Shown here one piece after another: positions 608-48,465 of a stretch of 64,000 bases of DNA (position 1 is the stretch's first letter; each line of letters begins with the position of its first letter). The stretch covers positions 1 to 64,000 of the forward strand of contig CAJVYQ010000011.1 of NCBI GenBank assembly GCA_913009825.1. Reading direction: 5' to 3'. The stretch is from an uncultured Deferribacteres bacterium (lineage in GTDB: Bacteria; Zhuqueibacterota; JdFR-76; DREG01). The translations under genes were made by a program, and so were the position numbers. A model generated the notes under the pieces. That model ran no database searches. It worked only from the letters and a program-made list of their open reading frames with translations, and was not told the DNA's origin.

Positions 608-2012
608 ATGGAAAAGGGCTCGTAAACGGTTCAAAGGAATAAAATATGAATAAACAACAAGCACAACAAATTATCAGAGATACCTTTGAAAATTCTTTTG
701 ATAAACAAAAGTTCAAAACATTCATACTGGACTTTTTAAATCATTTCGAGGAAAACACATTTATGCATAGGGGTTACAATATACCTGATTCATACGATGA
801 ATATATTAGTTCCTGGCAGCGATTAGGGAAATACAGCGACGGGGAAAATCGTATAGACATATTAATTGTGAATTTGAAAAAAGAAACTTCTCTTGAGCGG
901 GCTCGGTCCAGACAGAGAAATTTTGTGGCCGGATACTTACAAGGCAAATATGGTCGATCCGGTGAAAAAGAAGCTGCACTTGTAGCTTATGTGTCTCCGA
1001 ATAAATCAGACTGGCGCTTTTCGCTGGTTAAGATGGATTACAAATTTGAAAAAACCAAAACCGGCAGAATAAAAGTAAAAGAAGAATTCACTCCTGCCCG
1101 GCGCTGGTCGTTTCTTGTAGGAGCCAACGAAAAGAGCCACACAGCGCAAAGCCGACTAATCAAAATTCTGGCAAACGATGAACAGGCCCCAACCCTGGAA
1201 GAAATCGAAAAAGCCTTTGATATTGAAACCGTTACTAAAGAGTTTTTCCTCAAATACCGTGAGCTTTTTCTGCGCACCAAAGAAGAATTGGACAAGGTTG
1301 TTGAAAAAGACCCGAAAATTAAGGCTGACTTCGATGCCAAGGGCGTGGATACGGTCAACTTCGCAAAGAAACTGCTCGGGCAGATTATTTTTCTTTATTT
1401 TCTGCAGAAAAAGGGCTGGTTCGGTGTAGAGCGTAATGATAACTGGGGAAGCGGTTCAAAACATTTCCTTCGGGAACTGTTTAATAAAAAACATGGCGGT
1501 TATGAAAATTTCTTCAATGATATTTTAGAACCGCTTTTTTATGAAGCCCTGAGGACAGGTGAAGATCGTAAGCATGGAGATTATTATTACAGCAAGTTTG
1601 ACTGCAAAATCCCTTTCTTAAACGGCGGGCTTTTTGACCCTATCGGTAATTACGATTGGGTGCATACCGACATTCTTCTTCCAAACAAACTCTTTTCCAA
1701 CAACAGTAAAACGAAGGAAGGCGACACCGGAGACGGCATTCTGGACATCTTTGACCGTTACAACTTTACTGTTAGGGAAGACGAACCGCTGGAAAAGGAA
1801 GTAGCCATTGATCCGGAACTGCTGGGGAAAGCCTACGAGAAATTCAATGCCATCCGCCCGGATAATTATGATGAATTCAAAAAAGCGCTAAAAAACGGCA
1901 GAAAGGGCGATGAAAACAAATTCAATAAAAAATTCGGCGTCTATTATACGCCCCGCGAAATTGTCCATTACATGTGCCAACAGAGTTTGATTAACTACCT
2001 GACAGCAAGTGT

Positions 2013-2058
2013 ATCTCAGGCTTCCAGCCTGAATGACCACAGGCAGGATGCCCGTGAC
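2013..2058. repeat. ORF-embedded double palindrome
   Basis: Two small palindromes in tandem, TCAGGCTTCCAGCCTGA and CACAGGCAGGATGCCCGTG, lie in frame inside the methylase ORF and encode SQASSLNDHRQDARD. The second is the word that reads as RQDACA or TGILPV on either strand, a recognisable dispersed palindrome that interrupts genes without breaking the frame. Confidence 0.65.
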
Positions 2059-2341
2059 ACTATAACCAAAGAAGACATCGAAACCCTGATACATACCGGC
2101 GAGCAGGTCAGCGAAAACGAAGTAGCAGCGCTAATAAAAGAACAAAACATAAAAGAAGGAAAACAGAAAACTTCCGGCTACAAATTACAACTGTCCGAAA
2201 GCATACGATGCAACGCCGCCCTGATTGACGAGAAACTGGCGGACATCACAGTCTGCGACCCGGCAGTGGGTTCCGGCGCTTTCCCGGTAGGCATGATCAG
2301 CGAGATTGTAAGAGCAAGAAATGTATTGTCGACTTTTATCA

Positions 2342-2358
2342 ACAGGCAGGATGCCTGT
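2342..2358. repeat. ORF-embedded palindrome ACAGGCAGGATGCCTGT
   Basis: Second in-frame copy of the same palindromic word (encoding NRQDACA), placed between methylase motif I and the YGVDIDP block. It is a near-perfect inverted repeat with a single-base centre. Confidence 0.65.
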
Positions 2359-2470
2359 GCTACTACCTACGAATTCAAACGCCGCTGTATTGAACATTCC
2401 CTTTACGGTGTGGATATTGACCCGGGCGCGGTGGAGATTGCCAAACTGAGATAAGATAAAACAAGAATAA

Positions 2471-2602
2471 TTTAATGAAAAAATATCAAGGGAGGATGCA
2501 GAAACACAATTGGAACGAATACAAAATAAAGTTGATGAAATGACCTACCAACTCTACGGTTTCCCTGAAGAGGGGATAGGGATTGTGGAGGGGATAAGGT
2601 GA
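2471..2602 (+). pseudogene. C-terminal tail remnant of a type IIG restriction-modification gene
   Basis: A frame open only from a TAA at 2468-2470 encodes a 43-residue tail including EDAETQLERIQNKVDEM and TYQLYGFPEEGIGIVEGIR, ending at TGA 2600-2602. The pattern LEr-I-d-mvYqLYGl-eeeI-ivEg is the usual end of Eco57I-like enzymes. It has no start codon context and a frame different from the upstream truncated gene, so it is the far side of a deletion. The TGA overlaps the next ATG (TGATG), showing the two were once translationally coupled. Confidence 0.7.
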
Positions 2603-3258
2603 TGAATATGCTAAACCTCATTGGAAAAATATTAGTTTCAGCAATTCGTAATCTCTTTGCCAACCAACCTGATGTCTTGACACCTACTTCCTTCACAGGG
2701 ATGACAGAATGGAACTTTGGTCATCATCTTGCTAATGAGATTATCCAATATATTTTCTGGCTTAATCATGATCTGGATGTAACTAAACATAATTACGATA
2801 ACCGTCGGCCTGACATTATTTTTCACAAACGTGGAATTAATGACTTAAATTTTCTTGTTGTTGAAATAAAAACTAAAGGTTCAAGTGGAAAAGATATCAA
2901 AAAAATCAGAGATGGTTGGGTATGCCACCCATTAGAATATCGTTTTGGAGCAAGTATAGTTGTACAATCGACTGACGATTTTGAAGTTAATGTTTTTCAG
3001 AAAAACAGATCACAAACTTTTTCGAAGTCAATATCGGTTATTCCTATTCCTAAAATGTCAGATTCCGATAGAATATTATTTATTGAATTAGTGGATAAAA
3101 TTACTTTAATTACCAAAGACGAAGATTATTTACAAAACCCACAAAAGCAAGCAAAAGTCAAAGCGCTGGAACGGGAGATTGACCGGATAGTGAATGAACT
3201 TTACGGCCTCACGGAAGACGAAATAGCCGTAGTGGAAGAGAATGTAGGAAATGTATGA
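2602..3258 (+). CDS. PD-(D/E)XK-like nuclease-type protein with a restriction-enzyme tail
   Basis: ATG 2602 overlaps the stop of the upstream remnant (TGATG); a GTG three bases earlier is less likely. The 218-residue product has a plausible PD-(D/E)XK core: RRPDIIFHKRG, then a strand ending in FLVVEIKTKG, giving D...ExK, followed by a helix DIKKIRDGW. The final 35 residues, containing KALEREIDRIVNELYGLT, are the C-terminal tail otherwise seen on Eco57I-like restriction-modification enzymes. So this is either a genuine small partner protein that shares that tail or a product of recombination with a neighbouring gene's end. Placed directly behind the broken restriction-modification gene, a role in DNA restriction is likely by context. 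Activity is inferred from the motif only. Confidence 0.55.
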   Translation: MNMLNLIGKILVSAIRNLFANQPDVLTPTSFTGMTEWNFGHHLANEIIQYIFWLNHDLDVTKHNYDNRRPDIIFHKRGINDLNFLVVEIKTKGSSGKDIKKIRDGWVCHPLEYRFGASIVVQSTDDFEVNVFQKNRSQTFSKSISVIPIPKMSDSDRILFIELVDKITLITKDEDYLQNPQKQAKVKALEREIDRIVNELYGLTEDEIAVVEENVGNV

Positions 3259-3516: not shown

Positions 3517-4887
3517 ATGACCGAATTGGTTAGTTTTCAACCGACGAAGAAATTGTTTATCCATATCCTAACAAGAGATATTGATATACGCGATTGTATC
3601 TTTGAGTTGTTAGATAATGCAGTTGATTCTTACACAATAAATGAAATCGACGAAAAGAGAGAGATTCGATTAAATTTCGATAAAAATGAACTAAGCATTT
3701 TTGACAATTGCGGAGGTATCGATAAGAAGAAACTCCAGGAAGAAGTATTTCGATTTGGAACTAAAGATTTTTTGAATCATGCTCCCACTATTGGATTGTA
3801 TGGCATAGGTCTCAAAAGATCAATTTTTAAACTTGGTGAATTAATTGTTTTTGAAACAGATGATGGGAAAGATTATTGTAAACTTGAAATTGATGTAAAC
3901 GATTGGTTAAAGAAGAAAGACGAAGAAGGTAATGATATGTGGGACATACCATTAACCGAAACATCAACTTCAAGATTGATAAATGGGCAAAAACCTTTTA
4001 CCAGAATTAAAGTAAAAAAATTACGATATGAAACAATAGAGTCTTTTGTTCCAGAATTTGAAAGAAACTTAAAAGAAACCGTCAAGATATACTATTCACG
4101 TTACATACAAAGAGATAAAATTAATTTTTTTATAAACAATGAAAAACAAAGCGGTTTTGAAATAAAGGTAAAGGCATCTGATGATTTCAAACCCGTAAAA
4201 GTTGAAGAAGAATATGAGGGAATAAAAATAGCCATTTTTTGCTGGCTTGATTTAAGAGAAGAGCAAACAAAAAGATATGTAAAAGAACCCGGACACCAAG
4301 GCTGGAATGTTTTCATGAATGAACGTTTGGTAATCTTTGATGATACTTCAGAAGATACTGGTTGGACCGGAGAGAAACCATTTCTTCCCAAGGTTCACAA
4401 TATTTATAATCAATTTAGGGGAGTGGTTCTTTTGAATACAAATAATCCTTCAAAACTTCCTATTAATACTTCGAAAAACGGATTTAATACAGAAGATAGG
4501 ATTTATCATCATTTACTGAACCTCATGGTGAAAGTGGCAAGACCATTTATTGATTTCCTATCTGATAAGTATAATAAACAAAAAGAAAAGATTGATGAAA
4601 AAGAAGATGAATTATTAAAAACTATTAGTAAGGATAGCGAAGAAGAAAAGAAAATTATTGAAACTTCTATTGACGACACTAAAACAGAATACCAGTCGAC
4701 TTTCACACCACCTGAGACGGCAATTGTTACCCGACCTGTAATACCGCAAACAAGAATTTCATTTAAAAAACCCAGGAGACAAGTCGATATTATGAAAAAG
4801 GTTTTAAAAGTTAGAACTAATTGGCAAGTAGGGGAGAAGACATTTGATTATTTCTGGGAAAGCGAGGGCTTGGATGAAGAAGAGTAA
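3517..4887 (+). CDS. MORC/MutL-like GHKL ATPase (first gene of a three-gene cassette)
   Basis: The 456-residue protein has the Bergerat-fold ATP-binding signatures: N-box ELLDNAVDS (E30, N34), G1-like DNCGGI (D63-I68) and GLYGIGLKRS (from G93). Homologues of this kind (HATPase_c_3, MutL/MORC type) occur in prokaryotic restriction-modification and defence loci, where ATP-driven dimerisation is thought to clamp DNA. After the ATPase and transducer region there is a charged, probably coiled-coil stretch at about residues 350-395, rich in K/E, and a short C-terminal domain. It has no visible nuclease motif. The next gene starts inside its last codons, so the two are translationally coupled. It is AT-rich compared with the housekeeping genes downstream, suggesting acquisition. 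RBS GGAAGAAGGAG precedes ATG 3517. Confidence 0.8.
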   Translation: MTELVSFQPTKKLFIHILTRDIDIRDCIFELLDNAVDSYTINEIDEKREIRLNFDKNELSIFDNCGGIDKKKLQEEVFRFGTKDFLNHAPTIGLYGIGLKRSIFKLGELIVFETDDGKDYCKLEIDVNDWLKKKDEEGNDMWDIPLTETSTSRLINGQKPFTRIKVKKLRYETIESFVPEFERNLKETVKIYYSRYIQRDKINFFINNEKQSGFEIKVKASDDFKPVKVEEEYEGIKIAIFCWLDLREEQTKRYVKEPGHQGWNVFMNERLVIFDDTSEDTGWTGEKPFLPKVHNIYNQFRGVVLLNTNNPSKLPINTSKNGFNTEDRIYHHLLNLMVKVARPFIDFLSDKYNKQKEKIDEKEDELLKTISKDSEEEKKIIETSIDDTKTEYQSTFTPPETAIVTRPVIPQTRISFKKPRRQVDIMKKVLKVRTNWQVGEKTFDYFWESEGLDEEE

Positions 4888-5863
4888 ACCTAGTTTTGGG
4901 ATGATCAATTATATATTCAGACCAAAAAAGCAAATAGAGCGAAAAATACTTATAGAATTATTTCAAAAGATACAAAACACTTTGAATATTAATATACCAG
5001 AATATCAATATATCGGTCTTGGATCAATTTATTACTACGACTTTATTCTTTTTCATAAGTATTTAAACATCCGAGATATGGTTTCATTAGATAACAAAGA
5101 TTATCCTAATAGATTTGAATTCAATAAGCCGTTTGACTTTATTACATTTAAAAATATGTCAACAACTGATTTCCTTTCAAAAAACGATTTAAACAAAAAA
5201 TCATTTATTTGGTTTGATTATGATTCAAGTTTAATCCGTTATAAGAGTAAAACATTCTTGAACAAGGAAACAATCTTTGAAGATATTAAAATTATCACAA
5301 AAAAAAGCAAAGGACTGGACTTGTTTATTCTTACGGTTAACATAAAAATTCAGGACACTTTTTTTGACAGTCCAAGATTTAAGCAAGATTTTATAGATAA
5401 GTATGATGAATATTTATCAGATCAATATAAAAAGTTGAATAAGATTACTTTTGATAAGTATCCATTGATCATACAAAATATAATCATCAATATTTTTAGG
5501 AATAATGAACAATTTCACCCGGTAAAATTTAGAAAACTATTTTCATTTATTTATCAGGATGGAGCTCCAATGTATACAATTGGAGGAATATTTTCTAAAG
5601 ACAATCTACAGGATAAACTCGTTGAGGAAGATAGTTTTTTCCAAACAGATGAGAATAAAGTCGTAAATATAGATGTGCCTTTGCTTACTTATTATGAAAA
5701 AATGACATTAGATAAGAATATTTTAAACATTAAAGAGAACTTGATTTCACTGAACAAAGAAAAAATCATTGATTTGCTGGGTTTTGAAATGGAACCTTCC
5801 GAATTAAGAAGTTACTTAGATTATTACAGATATTATCCCCAATATTATGAGGGAATAATATGA
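4874..5863 (+). CDS. Rossmann/methyltransferase-like protein of unknown function (second cassette gene)
   Basis: I chose ATG 4874 (preceded by GCGAGGG) over a TTG at 4844; it overlaps the upstream gene by 14 nt. The 329-residue product has features of a SAM-dependent methyltransferase fold: YIGLGSIYYYDFILF resembles motif I, VSLDNKD an acidic motif II, and FIWFDYDS a motif IV-like strand. The middle also carries a PFDFITFKN block. The catalytic chemistry cannot be assigned, and I do not recognise a named family with certainty. Its stop overlaps the methylase start (ATGA), so all three cassette genes are coupled and probably work together. Confidence 0.6.
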   Translation: MKKSKPSFGMINYIFRPKKQIERKILIELFQKIQNTLNINIPEYQYIGLGSIYYYDFILFHKYLNIRDMVSLDNKDYPNRFEFNKPFDFITFKNMSTTDFLSKNDLNKKSFIWFDYDSSLIRYKSKTFLNKETIFEDIKIITKKSKGLDLFILTVNIKIQDTFFDSPRFKQDFIDKYDEYLSDQYKKLNKITFDKYPLIIQNIIINIFRNNEQFHPVKFRKLFSFIYQDGAPMYTIGGIFSKDNLQDKLVEEDSFFQTDENKVVNIDVPLLTYYEKMTLDKNILNIKENLISLNKEKIIDLLGFEMEPSELRSYLDYYRYYPQYYEGII

Positions 5864-7179
5864 CAAAAGATATATTGTATTTGATAGAAGATTCAAGGAA
5901 TATAAGGGCAGCTTTTCTTAAAAATAAGTTTGAAAAAGTTGATCTTATCCTAACATCCCCACCCTATTTTGATGTTAAGAATTATGAGAATGCTGAGCGG
6001 CAGATTGGTTACAAGCAGTCTTATGATGAATATTTGAATGATATCGCACTTGTTTTGCAAGATTGCTACAGTATTTCAAAAGATCATACAACCCTATGGT
6101 TAGTAATGGATACCATAAAAAGAAAAGGTATTACTTGTCCATTGCCATTCGATATACACAAAAAGCTCATTGATTTGAAAAGCGGTAATACTTGGATTCT
6201 CAGAGACGTAATAATTTGGAATAAATATAAGAACTTGCCTTGGCACGCGAAGGGTCGATTTAAAAATCAATTTGAATACATTTTATTTTTTTCAAAAACT
6301 GATGATTATAAATATTATTTGGATAGAGTTCGTGAAATTGCTGATTATAAAAATTGGTGGCTGACATACCCTGAAAGGTATAATTCTAACGGCAAACCTC
6401 CTTCTAATGTGTGGGAATTTACAATTCCCATTCGTGGTTGGGGTAACGGTCGCCAGAATCACTTTTGCCCTTTCCCTTTTCCGCTAATTGAAAGAATTCT
6501 TTCAATTTCTTCAGATAAAAATGATTTTATTTTTGATCCTTTTGCTGGTTCCGGTTCCGTTATAGCTATGGCCCAGCAAATGAACAGAAGAGCAATTGGA
6601 TTCGATATAAACCAAAAGTATAAAGACCAATTTGAGAAAGAAGTTATAAATGGCGCAAAATACTATTGGGAAAAAAGGAAGAAGGAATTGAATGAAATAA
6701 AAAGCAGAATTATACTTTTCAAAGAAACAAATCAACAATTGCGAAAAATTAAAGCTGGAATAAAGCTAAAGGAATTATTTCAAGATCAAATCCCGGGTGA
6801 CGATATAGCTTTTATAGTTATAGACAGAGGCAAGAAAGCTAAAGAAATTGACTTCATTGTTTTTTCAAAGAAAAAGGACACATTCATTAATCTTTCAGCC
6901 TGCAAGGATACTGTCAATAAACTGGAAAGTAAATATAAAGTAAAAATTAGTATAAAGAAAAAAAATGTCGATGAACTTTTAAATAGCAATTATAAAAAAT
7001 ATAAGTTTTTCGGTTACTTAAGTGATAAAATATATAGTTTTGAAAAAGAATTTTCTATAGCACAAATTGTTTTAAATAGCGGAAAACAAGATATTCTATT
7101 TTCAAATATAAAGATAAAAATAGATAGGAAAAATATTTCTTTTGGAGTGATAAATAGTTTGGAACAGAGCTTTAAGTAA
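5860..7179 (+). CDS. Class beta DNA methyltransferase (N4-cytosine/N6-adenine), third cassette gene
   Basis: Motif IV is TSPPYFD (S33-Y36) near the N-terminus and motif I DPFAGSGSV lies near residue 226. This order (IV before I) defines class beta amino-methylases, and an SPPY motif is more common in N4-cytosine than in N6-adenine enzymes. The catalytic domain ends around residue 265. A 170-residue lysine-rich C-terminal extension follows, of unknown role, perhaps target recognition or partner contact. Start ATG overlaps the previous stop (ATGA). No restriction endonuclease gene is coupled to it, so restriction, if any, must come from the ATPase, the second gene or another mechanism. A family 2 repeat begins 14 bp after the stop. 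Confidence 0.85.
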   Translation: MTKDILYLIEDSRNIRAAFLKNKFEKVDLILTSPPYFDVKNYENAERQIGYKQSYDEYLNDIALVLQDCYSISKDHTTLWLVMDTIKRKGITCPLPFDIHKKLIDLKSGNTWILRDVIIWNKYKNLPWHAKGRFKNQFEYILFFSKTDDYKYYLDRVREIADYKNWWLTYPERYNSNGKPPSNVWEFTIPIRGWGNGRQNHFCPFPFPLIERILSISSDKNDFIFDPFAGSGSVIAMAQQMNRRAIGFDINQKYKDQFEKEVINGAKYYWEKRKKELNEIKSRIILFKETNQQLRKIKAGIKLKELFQDQIPGDDIAFIVIDRGKKAKEIDFIVFSKKKDTFINLSACKDTVNKLESKYKVKISIKKKNVDELLNSNYKKYKFFGYLSDKIYSFEKEFSIAQIVLNSGKQDILFSNIKIKIDRKNISFGVINSLEQSFK

Positions 7180-7184
7180 TAATT

Positions 7185-7360
7185 TAATATTTGTAACTAT
7201 TCAGGTGTTTTCTTTCAATCTTTTTCGCCTTGCCGTGAACGACAAGGCTAAGAAATGAAAGGGCGCTAAAGCGTCCTATTTACGATAGCATCCTTCAGGA
7301 TGCTTTCATGTCTTAGCCTGAGGGTTCACTCTCAGGCGACCTGAATAGTTACTAATATTT
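7185..7360. mobile_element. Miniature inverted-repeat element, family 2 (copy 1) with 8-bp target duplication
   Basis: Ends GTAACTATTCAGGT (7193-7206) and ACCTGAATAGTTAC (7339-7352) are exact complements. The flanks are the exact 8-bp direct repeat TAATATTT (7185-7192 and 7353-7360). The interior holds nested palindromes (AAGGCTAAG...CTTAGCCT, AGCATCCTTCAGGATGCT). A near-identical copy lies at 8757-8917. Confidence 0.85.
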
Positions 7361-7503
7361 AAAAATGGATTTGCATTTTTCACTTCAGTTCTTGCCATTA
7401 AATAGTGAATGTGTAAATCGGGATTGGTTTCACATCTATTTGTTTCATTACCTTTGTAGACCAAATCCTCTCCATGAAAATCCAATCTATCAACTTGCGT
7501 CCA

Positions 7504-8748: not shown

Positions 8749-8925
8749 GATTCATTGTAACTATTCAGGTGTTTTCTTTCAATCTTTTTCACCTTGCCGT
8801 GAACGACAAGGCTAAGAAATAAAAGGGCGCTAAAGCGTCCTATTTACGATAGCATCCTTCAGGATGCTTTCATGTCTTAGCCTGAGGGGTTCACTCTCAG
8901 GCGACCTGAATAGTTACGATTTATG
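8749..8925. mobile_element. Miniature inverted-repeat element, family 2 (copy 2)
   Basis: Almost base-for-base the same as the element at 7193-7352 in the same orientation, with the same ends (8757 and 8917). The flanks GATTCATT and GATTTATG agree at 6 of 8 positions, a decayed version of the exact 8-bp duplication of copy 1. Confidence 0.8.
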
Positions 8926-45588: not shown

Positions 45589-46602
45589 TCATTTAAAATC
45601 TATTATCTCTGATTTTGTAATTATTTCGGTTATTTCATACTGGAATAATTCTACAATTCTTAATCTTTCATCATTGAATATTACATAATTGACGCCTTCT
45701 GAAACAGAACTATTATAAATAATTCCATGAAATCCAAGATGTTTAATAATTTCAGATAAATATTGACTTGGCAAATATTCAAGATTTGCCTCTCTTGGTA
45801 TTATCGGTTTTGTTAATTCTTCCCCTAATAATTCAAGAAATGGAAGATTCTTATATATTAGTTCTAATTCATCATCATCCAAGCCAAATGGAGTTATTGT
45901 TGTCTTTGGATTTCTTAAATCTGCTAATTCCAGATTATCTAGCATTTTAAATTTTGCAACAGTAACAGATTCTCCTTTATGTCCTCTAATTTCTGCAATG
46001 GCAGTTTCAGGGATAGATGCAACATATAAATAGGGTATTCCAATTGGATTGGCTCGTCCATTTGTTGACTTTTTTTTAGGAGGCTTTCCCATCTCTGAAC
46101 TTTCAATCGGTTTACCTAAGGTATTAATTCTGGCTCTGAAAAAATACTCAGAACCTTTAATAATTTTTTTTCCTAAATATTTTCCAAATGGTTCAATTGT
46201 TCTAACTGATGGAGCATTTCTAGGGAAAAATTTATTATGATGTTTTAATTCCGTTCTAAATGTTTCCCATTGTTCAATATTTTGTTTTTCTTTCAAATGA
46301 ATAGGATTATATTCATTGCATATATCAGACATAAGAATATTTTTAAGTAGTTCCTTTTGTTTTAAGTTATCAATTATGGAAAAGATATTCCAATCTAACT
46401 GAATTAATTCGTAGAGAGGACTTCCATTACTATCTTCCATGTATAAATCTACTAATGGAATGAATAAATCTTGTAATTCGATAGGTTCAACAAGTGGAAC
46501 ATCTATTTCGGCACAAAAAGAGCATTTACCCTTGCAGGTACTATTTGCATTAATATGACTTTGGATAAATGTATCATTAAAACAATTTGGGCAACAATAC
46601 AT
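45589..46602 (-). CDS. RES-domain protein with N-terminal zinc-binding segment
   Basis: The 337-residue protein opens with a likely zinc ribbon (MYCCPNC...CKGKCSFC) and ends in a RES domain (about residues 150-330). The key RES residues are visible: an arginine in YFFRARIN, a glutamate in SIPETAIAEIRGHKGE, and a serine near SEGVNYVIF. RES proteins (as in the RES-Xre toxin-antitoxin systems) deplete NAD+. There is no Xre/DUF2384 antitoxin here; the gene is third in an operon behind sce7726 and sce7725 relatives, starting 6 bp after the latter. It is a candidate effector of a defence operon. NAD+ cleavage is family knowledge, not shown by the sequence alone. Confidence 0.75.
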   Translation of the reverse strand: MYCCPNCFNDTFIQSHINANSTCKGKCSFCAEIDVPLVEPIELQDLFIPLVDLYMEDSNGSPLYELIQLDWNIFSIIDNLKQKELLKNILMSDICNEYNPIHLKEKQNIEQWETFRTELKHHNKFFPRNAPSVRTIEPFGKYLGKKIIKGSEYFFRARINTLGKPIESSEMGKPPKKKSTNGRANPIGIPYLYVASIPETAIAEIRGHKGESVTVAKFKMLDNLELADLRNPKTTITPFGLDDDELELIYKNLPFLELLGEELTKPIIPREANLEYLPSQYLSEIIKHLGFHGIIYNSSVSEGVNYVIFNDERLRIVELFQYEITEIITKSEIIDFK

Positions 46603-46608
46603 ATTATA

Positions 46609-47556
46609 TTATGCTTGATTGAAAAAATTAACTATCAATTCCAAATGATGCTGCATGGAAAGTTTTTTAACATAACCAAGACCAGGATAATGTTGCTTTT
46701 CATACAAATTTTTAAATTCATAATAGGCATTCGATTTAAAAATCATAGAATTTTTATTTTCAGCTTTATCAATTAGCTTACTCAATGCTTCCAAAAATTT
46801 GCCACCAGGATCTGTTGGTGAATCCGAACGGTCAGAAACAAAATGATAAATAAACATATCATCTTCTTCATTAAGATATGTTAAATGAATTGCTACGGCA
46901 TATGCGGGTCCACCAGTTTCAGAATAATCATCACCGACAATAAGGTAATCACCAAAACCATCCATACCTTCATCAGGATAAGTTATATGTAAATCAGAAA
47001 AATGTTCGCTTTCGGGATAAAGAGAATTTTTTCTTTGAGGTTTAAAGCCGTCACGAATTAAAATCCTAACAATTCCATCTTTTTTTAAATGTCTTTGATA
47101 AAGTTTACCAGCATAACCTTCAATAAAGATATGTCTTTTTATGTTATCAAAATCATTAATTTTATCGGCAATTAACTTGCTATTTGAAAAACCATAATGG
47201 ATAATGGAAAATTGCTTGTCTCTATTCCCTTCTAGTAAAGTTATTAATTCTTCAATATTAGTCTCTGCATTAAGTATATAACCATAAGACAGATTATGAA
47301 AATTAATGTCACTAATATTAATAAAATTATGAAAGATTATTTCTGTAGCTACTGGCTTTTCTCCAGTAATTGGATTTAAAATTAATGTATAATTTACTCC
47401 ATTTTCTTCAACAATTGTTAAAGCACGGTCCAAAGCTTTGAAATCGCATTTGACGGGTTCAATAATTGGATGTATATCATTATCAGCGACAATTTTTGCA
47501 TTATCTCTAAGTAAAATCAATTCAAATTGCTTGCCTCGTAAAAATGGATAATACAT
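46609..47556 (-). CDS. sce7725-family (Beta-protein-like) protein
   Basis: The 315-residue protein starts MYYPFLRGKQFELILLRD, the recognisable opening of the sce7725 family, related to phage Beta-family proteins. It has an alternating strand-helix pattern suggestive of a TIM barrel (HPIIEPVK, YTLILNP, FSIIHYGF, HIFIEGYAG, DGFGDYLIVGDD). The molecular function is unknown. Such genes commonly sit next to sce7726-family genes, as here. ATG 47556 follows AAAGGTAACAAT. It is AT-rich like its operon partners, which suggests recent acquisition. Confidence 0.75.
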   Translation of the reverse strand: MYYPFLRGKQFELILLRDNAKIVADNDIHPIIEPVKCDFKALDRALTIVEENGVNYTLILNPITGEKPVATEIIFHNFINISDINFHNLSYGYILNAETNIEELITLLEGNRDKQFSIIHYGFSNSKLIADKINDFDNIKRHIFIEGYAGKLYQRHLKKDGIVRILIRDGFKPQRKNSLYPESEHFSDLHITYPDEGMDGFGDYLIVGDDYSETGGPAYAVAIHLTYLNEEDDMFIYHFVSDRSDSPTDPGGKFLEALSKLIDKAENKNSMIFKSNAYYEFKNLYEKQHYPGLGYVKKLSMQHHLELIVNFFNQA

Positions 47557-47568
47557 ATTGTTACCTTT

Positions 47569-48465
47569 TTATATTAAATAACAACTTAATTTTTGATCAA
47601 AAAGACTTATATAATTTCTTATTTTAGCCTGTTGATTACCTATACTTAATATATAAGCAACCACGGAAAAAGGAATTTTATCGATGGTGTTTTTTAGATA
47701 TTCTGAGTCATTGCGTTTTTTTAAAACATCGATAGTTAACTTATAAGCATTAAATAATGGGATATCGCAGTAAAGTTTTTTACTTACTTCATATATTTTG
47801 GTATTTGGAACATCCGGTATGCAACCGTAAAATTTGTTGATAATACTAAGATATTCACCTTTTCTAAGTGAACCAAACAAAAAATCAAGATTTAAATTTG
47901 ATAGGTTTGATTCTGGTTTACGAATTATAGAAATAGTATCTTCCTTTGTTAATGCGAGAATACCGACCTCTTTGGGCAAATGCTTTTTTGCGATATCAAC
48001 TTGGGAAGGTGATGTAACCAAATTAACATATTCAAAAGCTTTTATATATGAGTTGATTTGATCATCAAGCCTTTTAAAGGAGTCATATTCCGATTTAATT
48101 TCATATATTGTCGATGTTCCATTTAAAATTACAACGTCAGCTTTGTTTTTCCCAACTCGAAATTCAGTTAACATCTGGGAAGTTTTTATGGAATGGCGGC
48201 CAAGTAAAATTTTATTTGCGATAATATTTTTATAAACATATTCATTTCGATAATTATTTAATAAAAACCGAAAAATATTATTCAAAAAATTCCCTAACGT
48301 TATAGTTAAATCTAAATATTTAATCAATCCGCTATTTTTACATACTTCTGATAAATAAGAAGAATATTCTTTTTTCTCAATATCAGACAAAACAACAGGA
48401 GAGAAAAAACGTCCTATCGAAGATAGATATCTTTTATCAATATCAAAATTGATTAAACTGTTCAT
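47569..48465 (-). CDS. sce7726-family protein, PD-(D/E)XK nuclease-like
   Basis: The 298-residue protein is the first of the operon. Its central part (residues about 95-135) reads RVGKNKADVVILNG, then STIYEIKSEYD, giving the D...ExK pattern of PD-(D/E)XK nucleases. The helix after it (DSFKRLDDQINSYIKAF) also fits that fold. The rest matches the sce7726 family. DNA cleavage is therefore plausible but unproven. There is no ribosome-binding site before ATG 48465, so it may be translated from a very short leader. Twelve bases separate it from sce7725. Confidence 0.72.
   Translation of the reverse strand: MNSLINFDIDKRYLSSIGRFFSPVVLSDIEKKEYSSYLSEVCKNSGLIKYLDLTITLGNFLNNIFRFLLNNYRNEYVYKNIIANKILLGRHSIKTSQMLTEFRVGKNKADVVILNGTSTIYEIKSEYDSFKRLDDQINSYIKAFEYVNLVTSPSQVDIAKKHLPKEVGILALTKEDTISIIRKPESNLSNLNLDFLFGSLRKGEYLSIINKFYGCIPDVPNTKIYEVSKKLYCDIPLFNAYKLTIDVLKKRNDSEYLKNTIDKIPFSVVAYILSIGNQQAKIRNYISLFDQKLSCYLI

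Follow-up and report, generated by a model that had tools for sequence, protein, structure and literature searches.

How a DNA-marking locus might act on foreign DNA when no known nuclease family is found among its genes is the question raised by a three-gene cassette in a 64,000-nt stretch of DNA from an uncultured Deferribacteres bacterium (contig CAJVYQ010000011.1 of assembly GCA_913009825.1, positions 1 to 64,000; hereafter the window). The initial annotation had described the genes as AT-rich and translationally coupled, and this was confirmed by the open reading frame (ORF) coordinates, genes 1 and 2 overlapping by exactly 14 nt (4874–4887) and genes 2 and 3 by an exact ATGA (5860–5863), and by a GC content of 27–33% in the cassette versus ~42–51% across most of the window; a ribosome-site-like GGAG sits 5′ of gene 1. 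The predicted products are a MORC-family ATPase, a protein of the Pfam family PF20553 and a beta-class DNA methylase (Table 1), and the Pfam identities of all three are far beyond chance. The MORC and PF20553 genes were found plugged into at least four DNA-marking systems in other genomes, and the pair is therefore probably a portable module that acts against unmarked foreign DNA.

That gene 1 encodes a GHKL ATPase, as the initial annotation had it, was borne out by its Pfam match (HATPase_c_3, E = 1.6e-9) and by structural matches to MORC proteins. The GHKL ATP-binding motifs are intact (ELLDN at residues 30–34, DNCGGI at 63–68 and GLYGIGLKR at 93–101), and the stretch corresponding to the S5-domain signature (GWNVFMNERLV, 262–272) and a lysine loop (LPINTSK, 314–320) lie further along the protein. 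A profile of gene 1 relatives compared with the PDB retrieved human MORC4, MORC3 and MORC2 (best E = 4.5e-5), and the AlphaFold model (pLDDT 85) had SMCHD1, DNA-bound MORC2 and MORC3 as its nearest Foldseek matches (E ~1e-13), with Hsp90s close behind. The S5-domain signature, GhXhhpXXRhl, is the defining MORC feature in Iyer et al. (PMC2292703) and was present in 74 of 75 family members, the window protein being the sole exception among those 75. Judged by sequence and predicted structure, gene 1 belongs to the MORC ATPases. Related longer MORCs (530–559 aa) standing without PF20553 were found at L128 (5562–8591) and L129 (5812–7401), one of them adjoining a C5 methylase, and are a sister lineage.

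Gene 2 had been described as an unassigned protein with a methyltransferase-like N-terminal half. The likeness to methyltransferases held, as the AlphaFold model (pLDDT 90) has a class I S-adenosylmethionine (SAM)-methyltransferase fold, but the protein is not unassigned, since PF20553 (Methyltransf_35) matches almost its full length (residues 7–326, E = 3.2e-65). PF20553 is an existing but uncharacterised Pfam family labelled only ‘putative O-methyltransferase’, in which R16, K19, R23, G48/G50, D56, H61, an acidic residue at 73, N84, P86, W113 and D115 are conserved. Gene 3 matched N6_N4_Mtase (E = 3.1e-49) and carries TSPPY at residues 32–36 and FDPFAGSGS at 225–233, in agreement with its earlier description as a TSPPY methylase of class beta. 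An SPPY motif usually marks an N4-cytosine methylase, and from this motif the gene 3 product is probably N4-cytosine-specific.

Querying GTDB genome contigs with a PF20553 alignment yielded 73 loci spread over many phyla, and the addition of loci from phages, plasmids, viral contigs and the window brought the pairing count to n = 78; single-sequence gene 2 scans of viral and genome contigs gave no matches where the alignment-based query succeeded. In 75 of the 78 loci a MORC gene stood directly upstream of PF20553 and in the same orientation, usually overlapping it or a few bases apart, and the three exceptions were a transposase-split locus (L003), one with only a broken MORC ORF (L034) and a degenerate one (L080). 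At L003 (1671–6816), on Sinorhizobium psymA, an IS66-type insertion lies between the two genes. For an independent draw that avoids the bias of the alignment query, the PF20553 Pfam hidden Markov model (HMM) was run over evenly drawn genomes, centres excluded, and matched 4 of 398 Pseudomonadota, 3 of 395 in the Bacteroides phylum, 1 of 296 Actinomycetota and none of the 81 genomes of the window's own phylum, and relatives of the genome that holds the window likewise gave no matches; MORC adjoined PF20553 in all eight loci. A MORC search of the same Pseudomonadota set (399 genomes) gave a close MORC (>345 bits) in five, exactly those that have PF20553, and weaker MORCs stood without it. MORC and PF20553 coevolve, with a tree-distance correlation of r = 0.92 versus 0.50–0.56 with the C5 methylase. 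The initial annotation had proposed that recurrence of gene 2 homologues beside the ATPase and the methylase in defence islands would support a defence system, and that finding the genes mostly apart would refute it; the ATPase was almost never apart from PF20553 in our sample, but the DNA-marking partner varied. The pair is also carried on a Pf prophage, on plasmids and on a phage-like contig. In the filamentous Pf prophage of Pseudomonas phage PfAC20 (L002, 280–3711) the order is MORC-PF20553-C5 methylase, scored in the PfAC20 paper, from the methylase alone, as an incomplete restriction system (PMC11878078).

Modification partners were counted within ~7.5 kb of the pair at 86 loci and assigned with curated references; near-identical loci are included, so the counts do not represent independent events. 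A DNA-modification system lay near 79 of the 86 loci, namely a C5 methylase at 29, DISARM at 28, Dnd at 18 and a beta methylase at 4, with the DISARM and Dnd genes confirmed by PADLOC models, while the seven loci without a partner mostly came from short contigs or from the edge of a contig. Most of the 28 DISARM relatives hold the pair between drmMI and drmA, and in a Deinococcus class 1 DISARM without the pair these two genes overlap directly, which indicates that the pair is an optional insert in DISARM. The PF20553 tree requires at least eight partner switches, exemplified by L072 (DISARM) and L074 (C5), which are sisters at 100/100. By the tree-distance correlations and the partner switches, what stays together is the MORC-PF20553 pair, and what is exchanged is the marking enzyme. 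The slot directly upstream of the pair was variously occupied in some Dnd loci, by a SIR2-domain protein in Paenibacillus (L015, 3952–5223; L017, 1449–2720), by an Mrr nuclease with a HARE-HTH domain in Bacteroidota, by DndE fused to an AAA/HerA-like ATPase (L019, 5129–6607) or by DndE within a 1727-aa ORF (L021, 1443–6620).

The exact trio of the window recurred as an isolated cassette in two randomly drawn genomes (L104 and L105), surrounded each time by ordinary genes, with neither a helicase nor a recognised nuclease. Its PF20553 and methylase proteins are 43–50% identical to those of the window; the methylases (45–50% identical) are full-length relatives, and the C-terminal extension of gene 3 is common to its relatives. 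On the PF20553 tree the window, L104 and L105 group at 100/100 inside a clade of mainly C5-linked members. A fourth beta-methylase locus, L106, differs in arrangement and has an SNF2 helicase nearby. Two haloarchaeal plasmid proteins (L113, 2925–5879; L114, 2907–5849) are MORC-like GHKL ATPases fused to a beta-class methylase, which supports a functional coupling of ATPase and methylase; both adjoin a second, free beta methylase, L114 also with a DndD/PbeC-like ATPase, and two unannotated genes beside the fusion gave no match when checked as a distant MORC-PF20553 pair. With the trio standing alone in two further genomes, the near-constant pairing and the frequent modification partner, the earlier view of a self-contained, modification-linked cassette is supported. 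Set against a type II restriction-modification system, the window cassette has the DNA methylase, and no cognate restriction endonuclease was recognised in it or in the L104 and L105 trio loci.

The observed gene content, near-obligate pairing, coevolution, partner switching and folds are the basis for the reading that we favour with moderate confidence, namely a three-gene modification-dependent exclusion system in which the methylase marks self and MORC and PF20553 block unmarked DNA without a classical nuclease. The beta-class methylase would mark the host's own DNA, and MORC and PF20553 would form one obligate functional pair that engages and blocks DNA lacking the mark; PF20553, by means of its SAM/base-binding fold, would most likely act in recognition or regulation, with the MORC clamp providing the block. 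In relatives the self-mark would come instead from a C5 methylase, class 1 DISARM or Dnd phosphorothioation. Self-marking by the methylase and exclusion of unmarked DNA without a classical nuclease would fit the gene content, while the anti-foreign-DNA role, recognition by PF20553, this division of labour and the lack of cleavage are inferred. Solved eukaryotic MORC relatives are ATP-driven dimeric DNA clamps, and MORC relatives have been described as ATPases that trap or compact DNA (PMC12216690, PMC8277788). As the minimal loci showed no recognised nuclease, the simplest guess is that the pair might block DNA by trapping or compacting it.

A further-reaching version is only a tentative possibility, namely that MORC-PF20553 could be a chemistry-independent, non-nucleolytic silencing module, whose clamp traps or compacts any DNA without the local mark, be it 5-methylcytosine (m5C), N4-methylcytosine (m4C) or N6-methyladenine (m6A), or phosphorothioate, as a prokaryotic counterpart of the eukaryotic MORC silencing of foreign DNA. 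Several points weigh against the favoured reading. Class 1 DISARM and Dnd-Pbe come with restriction components already, so in these settings the pair may play only an accessory role, and it is hard to see one reader recognising m5C, m4C and phosphorothioate alike. The MORC signature of the window protein has M at the conserved C, a position where a polar residue is required, and shares this M with L104 and L105. In addition, a Vsr endonuclease occurs close to 15 loci, all C5-linked and about half of that group, and an Mrr or SIR2 effector stands just before MORC in some Dnd loci, so some loci may recruit a nuclease.

These neighbours lead to a rather unlikely alternative, classical restriction, in which the pair would load a hidden or recruited nuclease, whether Vsr, Mrr, one supplied by the host or a nuclease site within the pair itself that escaped recognition. 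Iyer et al. in 2008 also listed MORC with Vsr and restriction endonucleases (PMC2292703), but no nuclease was recognised in the window, L104 and L105 trio loci, and neither pair protein has a nuclease Pfam domain. We would give as little credence to PF20553 being a catalytically active, Trm1-like methyltransferase that would attack tRNA or DNA when MORC detects unmarked DNA, and so bring about abortive infection. Trm1 was the best solved Foldseek match of the gene 2 model (3axs, E = 9.9e-7), with three Trm1 entries among the top 18, and PF20553 conserves the usual SAM-binding positions, GxG and an acidic residue that follows strand 2. However, the TM-score was modest (0.48), identity to Trm1 is ~12%, the genomic setting of gene 2 is DNA modification, and [IV]W[FL]DY stands at the motif IV position, where N-methyltransferases have DPPY/DPFG, which makes catalysis doubtful. 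Both the recruited nuclease and Trm1-like toxic methylation remain real rivals to non-nucleolytic exclusion.

Quite improbable is a role in maintenance or repair, the pair aiding the modification enzyme or repairing its by-products in a MutL/Vsr-like manner and leaving foreign DNA alone. MORC is similar to MutL at the family level, Vsr acts in the repair of deaminated m5C, and the haloarchaeal ATPase-methylase fusion would suit such a role; yet the pair also accompanies phosphorothioation and DISARM, where m5C deamination is not expected, DISARM exists without the pair, and carriage on prophages and plasmids with a very patchy distribution suits defence better. That the cassette is a decayed or inactive remnant is very improbable, for although the neighbouring type IIG gene is truncated and transposon-like elements flank the cassette, the three ORFs are all intact and retain their overlaps and core motifs.

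MORC ATPases in restriction-type loci are not new, having been predicted in 2008 by Iyer, Abhiman and Aravind (PMC2292703). In the available text of that paper, prokaryotic MORC/paraMORC operons resemble the window cassette in their GHKL and S5 ATPase, MORC signature and place beside DNA methylases and Vsr, and the ATPases are proposed to remodel DNA; the operons differ in being mainly helicase- or nuclease-containing, and neither PF20553 nor the swapping of DISARM and Dnd partners is recognisable in that text. Class 1 DISARM is akin through the pair that most of the DISARM relatives carry between drmMI and drmA, but membership of DISARM was rejected by gene content, as no DrmA, DrmB, DrmC or DrmD, and thus neither the DrmA helicase nor DrmB, lies beside the window cassette. 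Mza is a defence system that Gao et al. in 2020 are said to have described with a MORC ATPase, MzaB. The PADLOC MzaB model matched 19 of 44 MORC relatives weakly (best E = 1.3e-6) and the window MORC not at all, and no Mza model in PADLOC matched the three genes or their upstream neighbours, so Mza was likewise rejected by gene content. A precedent is DndCDEA-PbeABCD, an exclusion cassette that is portable, partners phosphorothioation or methylases and reportedly stops replication without DNA cleavage (PMC6459918). It co-occurs with the MORC-PF20553 pair in some loci, but no Dnd or Pbe homologue lies beside the window cassette, whose three proteins match no Pbe model in PADLOC, and Dnd-Pbe membership was rejected with DndCDE and PbeAC absent. 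VcSduA/Shedu type I-D (paraMORC3) likewise has a GHKL ATPase, which has been suggested to govern a defence effector, but carries a fused DUF4263 nuclease (PMC12137116), whereas a C-terminal DUF4263 domain was present in none of the 44 MORC family members scanned, and Shedu was rejected accordingly. The initial annotation knew of no named system with this trio, and PADLOC-DB 2023 indeed has no model fitting gene 1 or gene 2. For MORC-PF20553 as a partner-swapping module, no name was found in PADLOC-DB 2023 or in the open-access literature searched, preprints and most subscription papers lying outside that scope.

If the favoured reading is true, one two-gene module would serve four chemically different self-marking systems, and modification-based immunity would be more modular than the tally of named systems implies. 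Defence annotation would be extended at some class 1 DISARM, Dnd and orphan C5-methylase loci by two genes that fit no PADLOC model, and PF20553 would gain a purpose. The pair would also allow the action of MORC ATPases on foreign DNA, a question in eukaryotic silencing, to be tested in a tractable bacterial setting.

Table 1. The cassette and its flanking features in the window (MITE, miniature inverted-repeat transposable element).
Feature	Coordinates	Strand	Evidence
Truncated type IIG restriction-methylase: 602-aa N-terminal half and 219-aa tail ORF	646..3258	+	PADLOC PDLC03596, 1-608 of 1148 positions
130-bp MITE-like palindromic element, 18-nt inverted ends; before the cassette, not part of the system	3342..3471
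Gene 1, predicted MORC-family GHKL ATPase, 456 aa	3517..4887	+	Pfam, profile vs PDB, AlphaFold/Foldseek, family signature
Gene 2, PF20553 (Methyltransf_35) protein, 329 aa from ATG at 4874	4874..5863	+	Pfam, AlphaFold, Foldseek, conservation
Gene 3, predicted beta-class DNA methylase, 439 aa	5860..7179	+	Pfam, full-length relatives in L104/L105
180-bp MITE-like palindromic element, 24-nt inverted ends; after the cassette, not part of the system	7183..7362

The type IIG gene upstream of the cassette is broken in its methylase domain and was considered as a further component, but was excluded from the system because the trios at L104 and L105 lack it. Two palindromic inserts (GGCAGGATGCC at 2042 and 2345) lie in frame inside this gene, and their extended 18-base form was found nowhere else in the genome, which suggests a foreign origin. 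The 130-bp MITE-like family has ~40 genome copies, mostly 80–96% identical. The 180-bp element has a further copy at 8755–8917 of the window and at least 40 in the genome (best 40 scored), most of them 95–100% identical and several at contig ends, suggesting recent spread. Elsewhere in the window, an AT-rich stretch on the minus strand (45589–48465, 27–36% GC) encodes a RES-domain protein and two ORFs of 315 and 298 aa with no Pfam match, and resembles a further island of defence or toxin genes.

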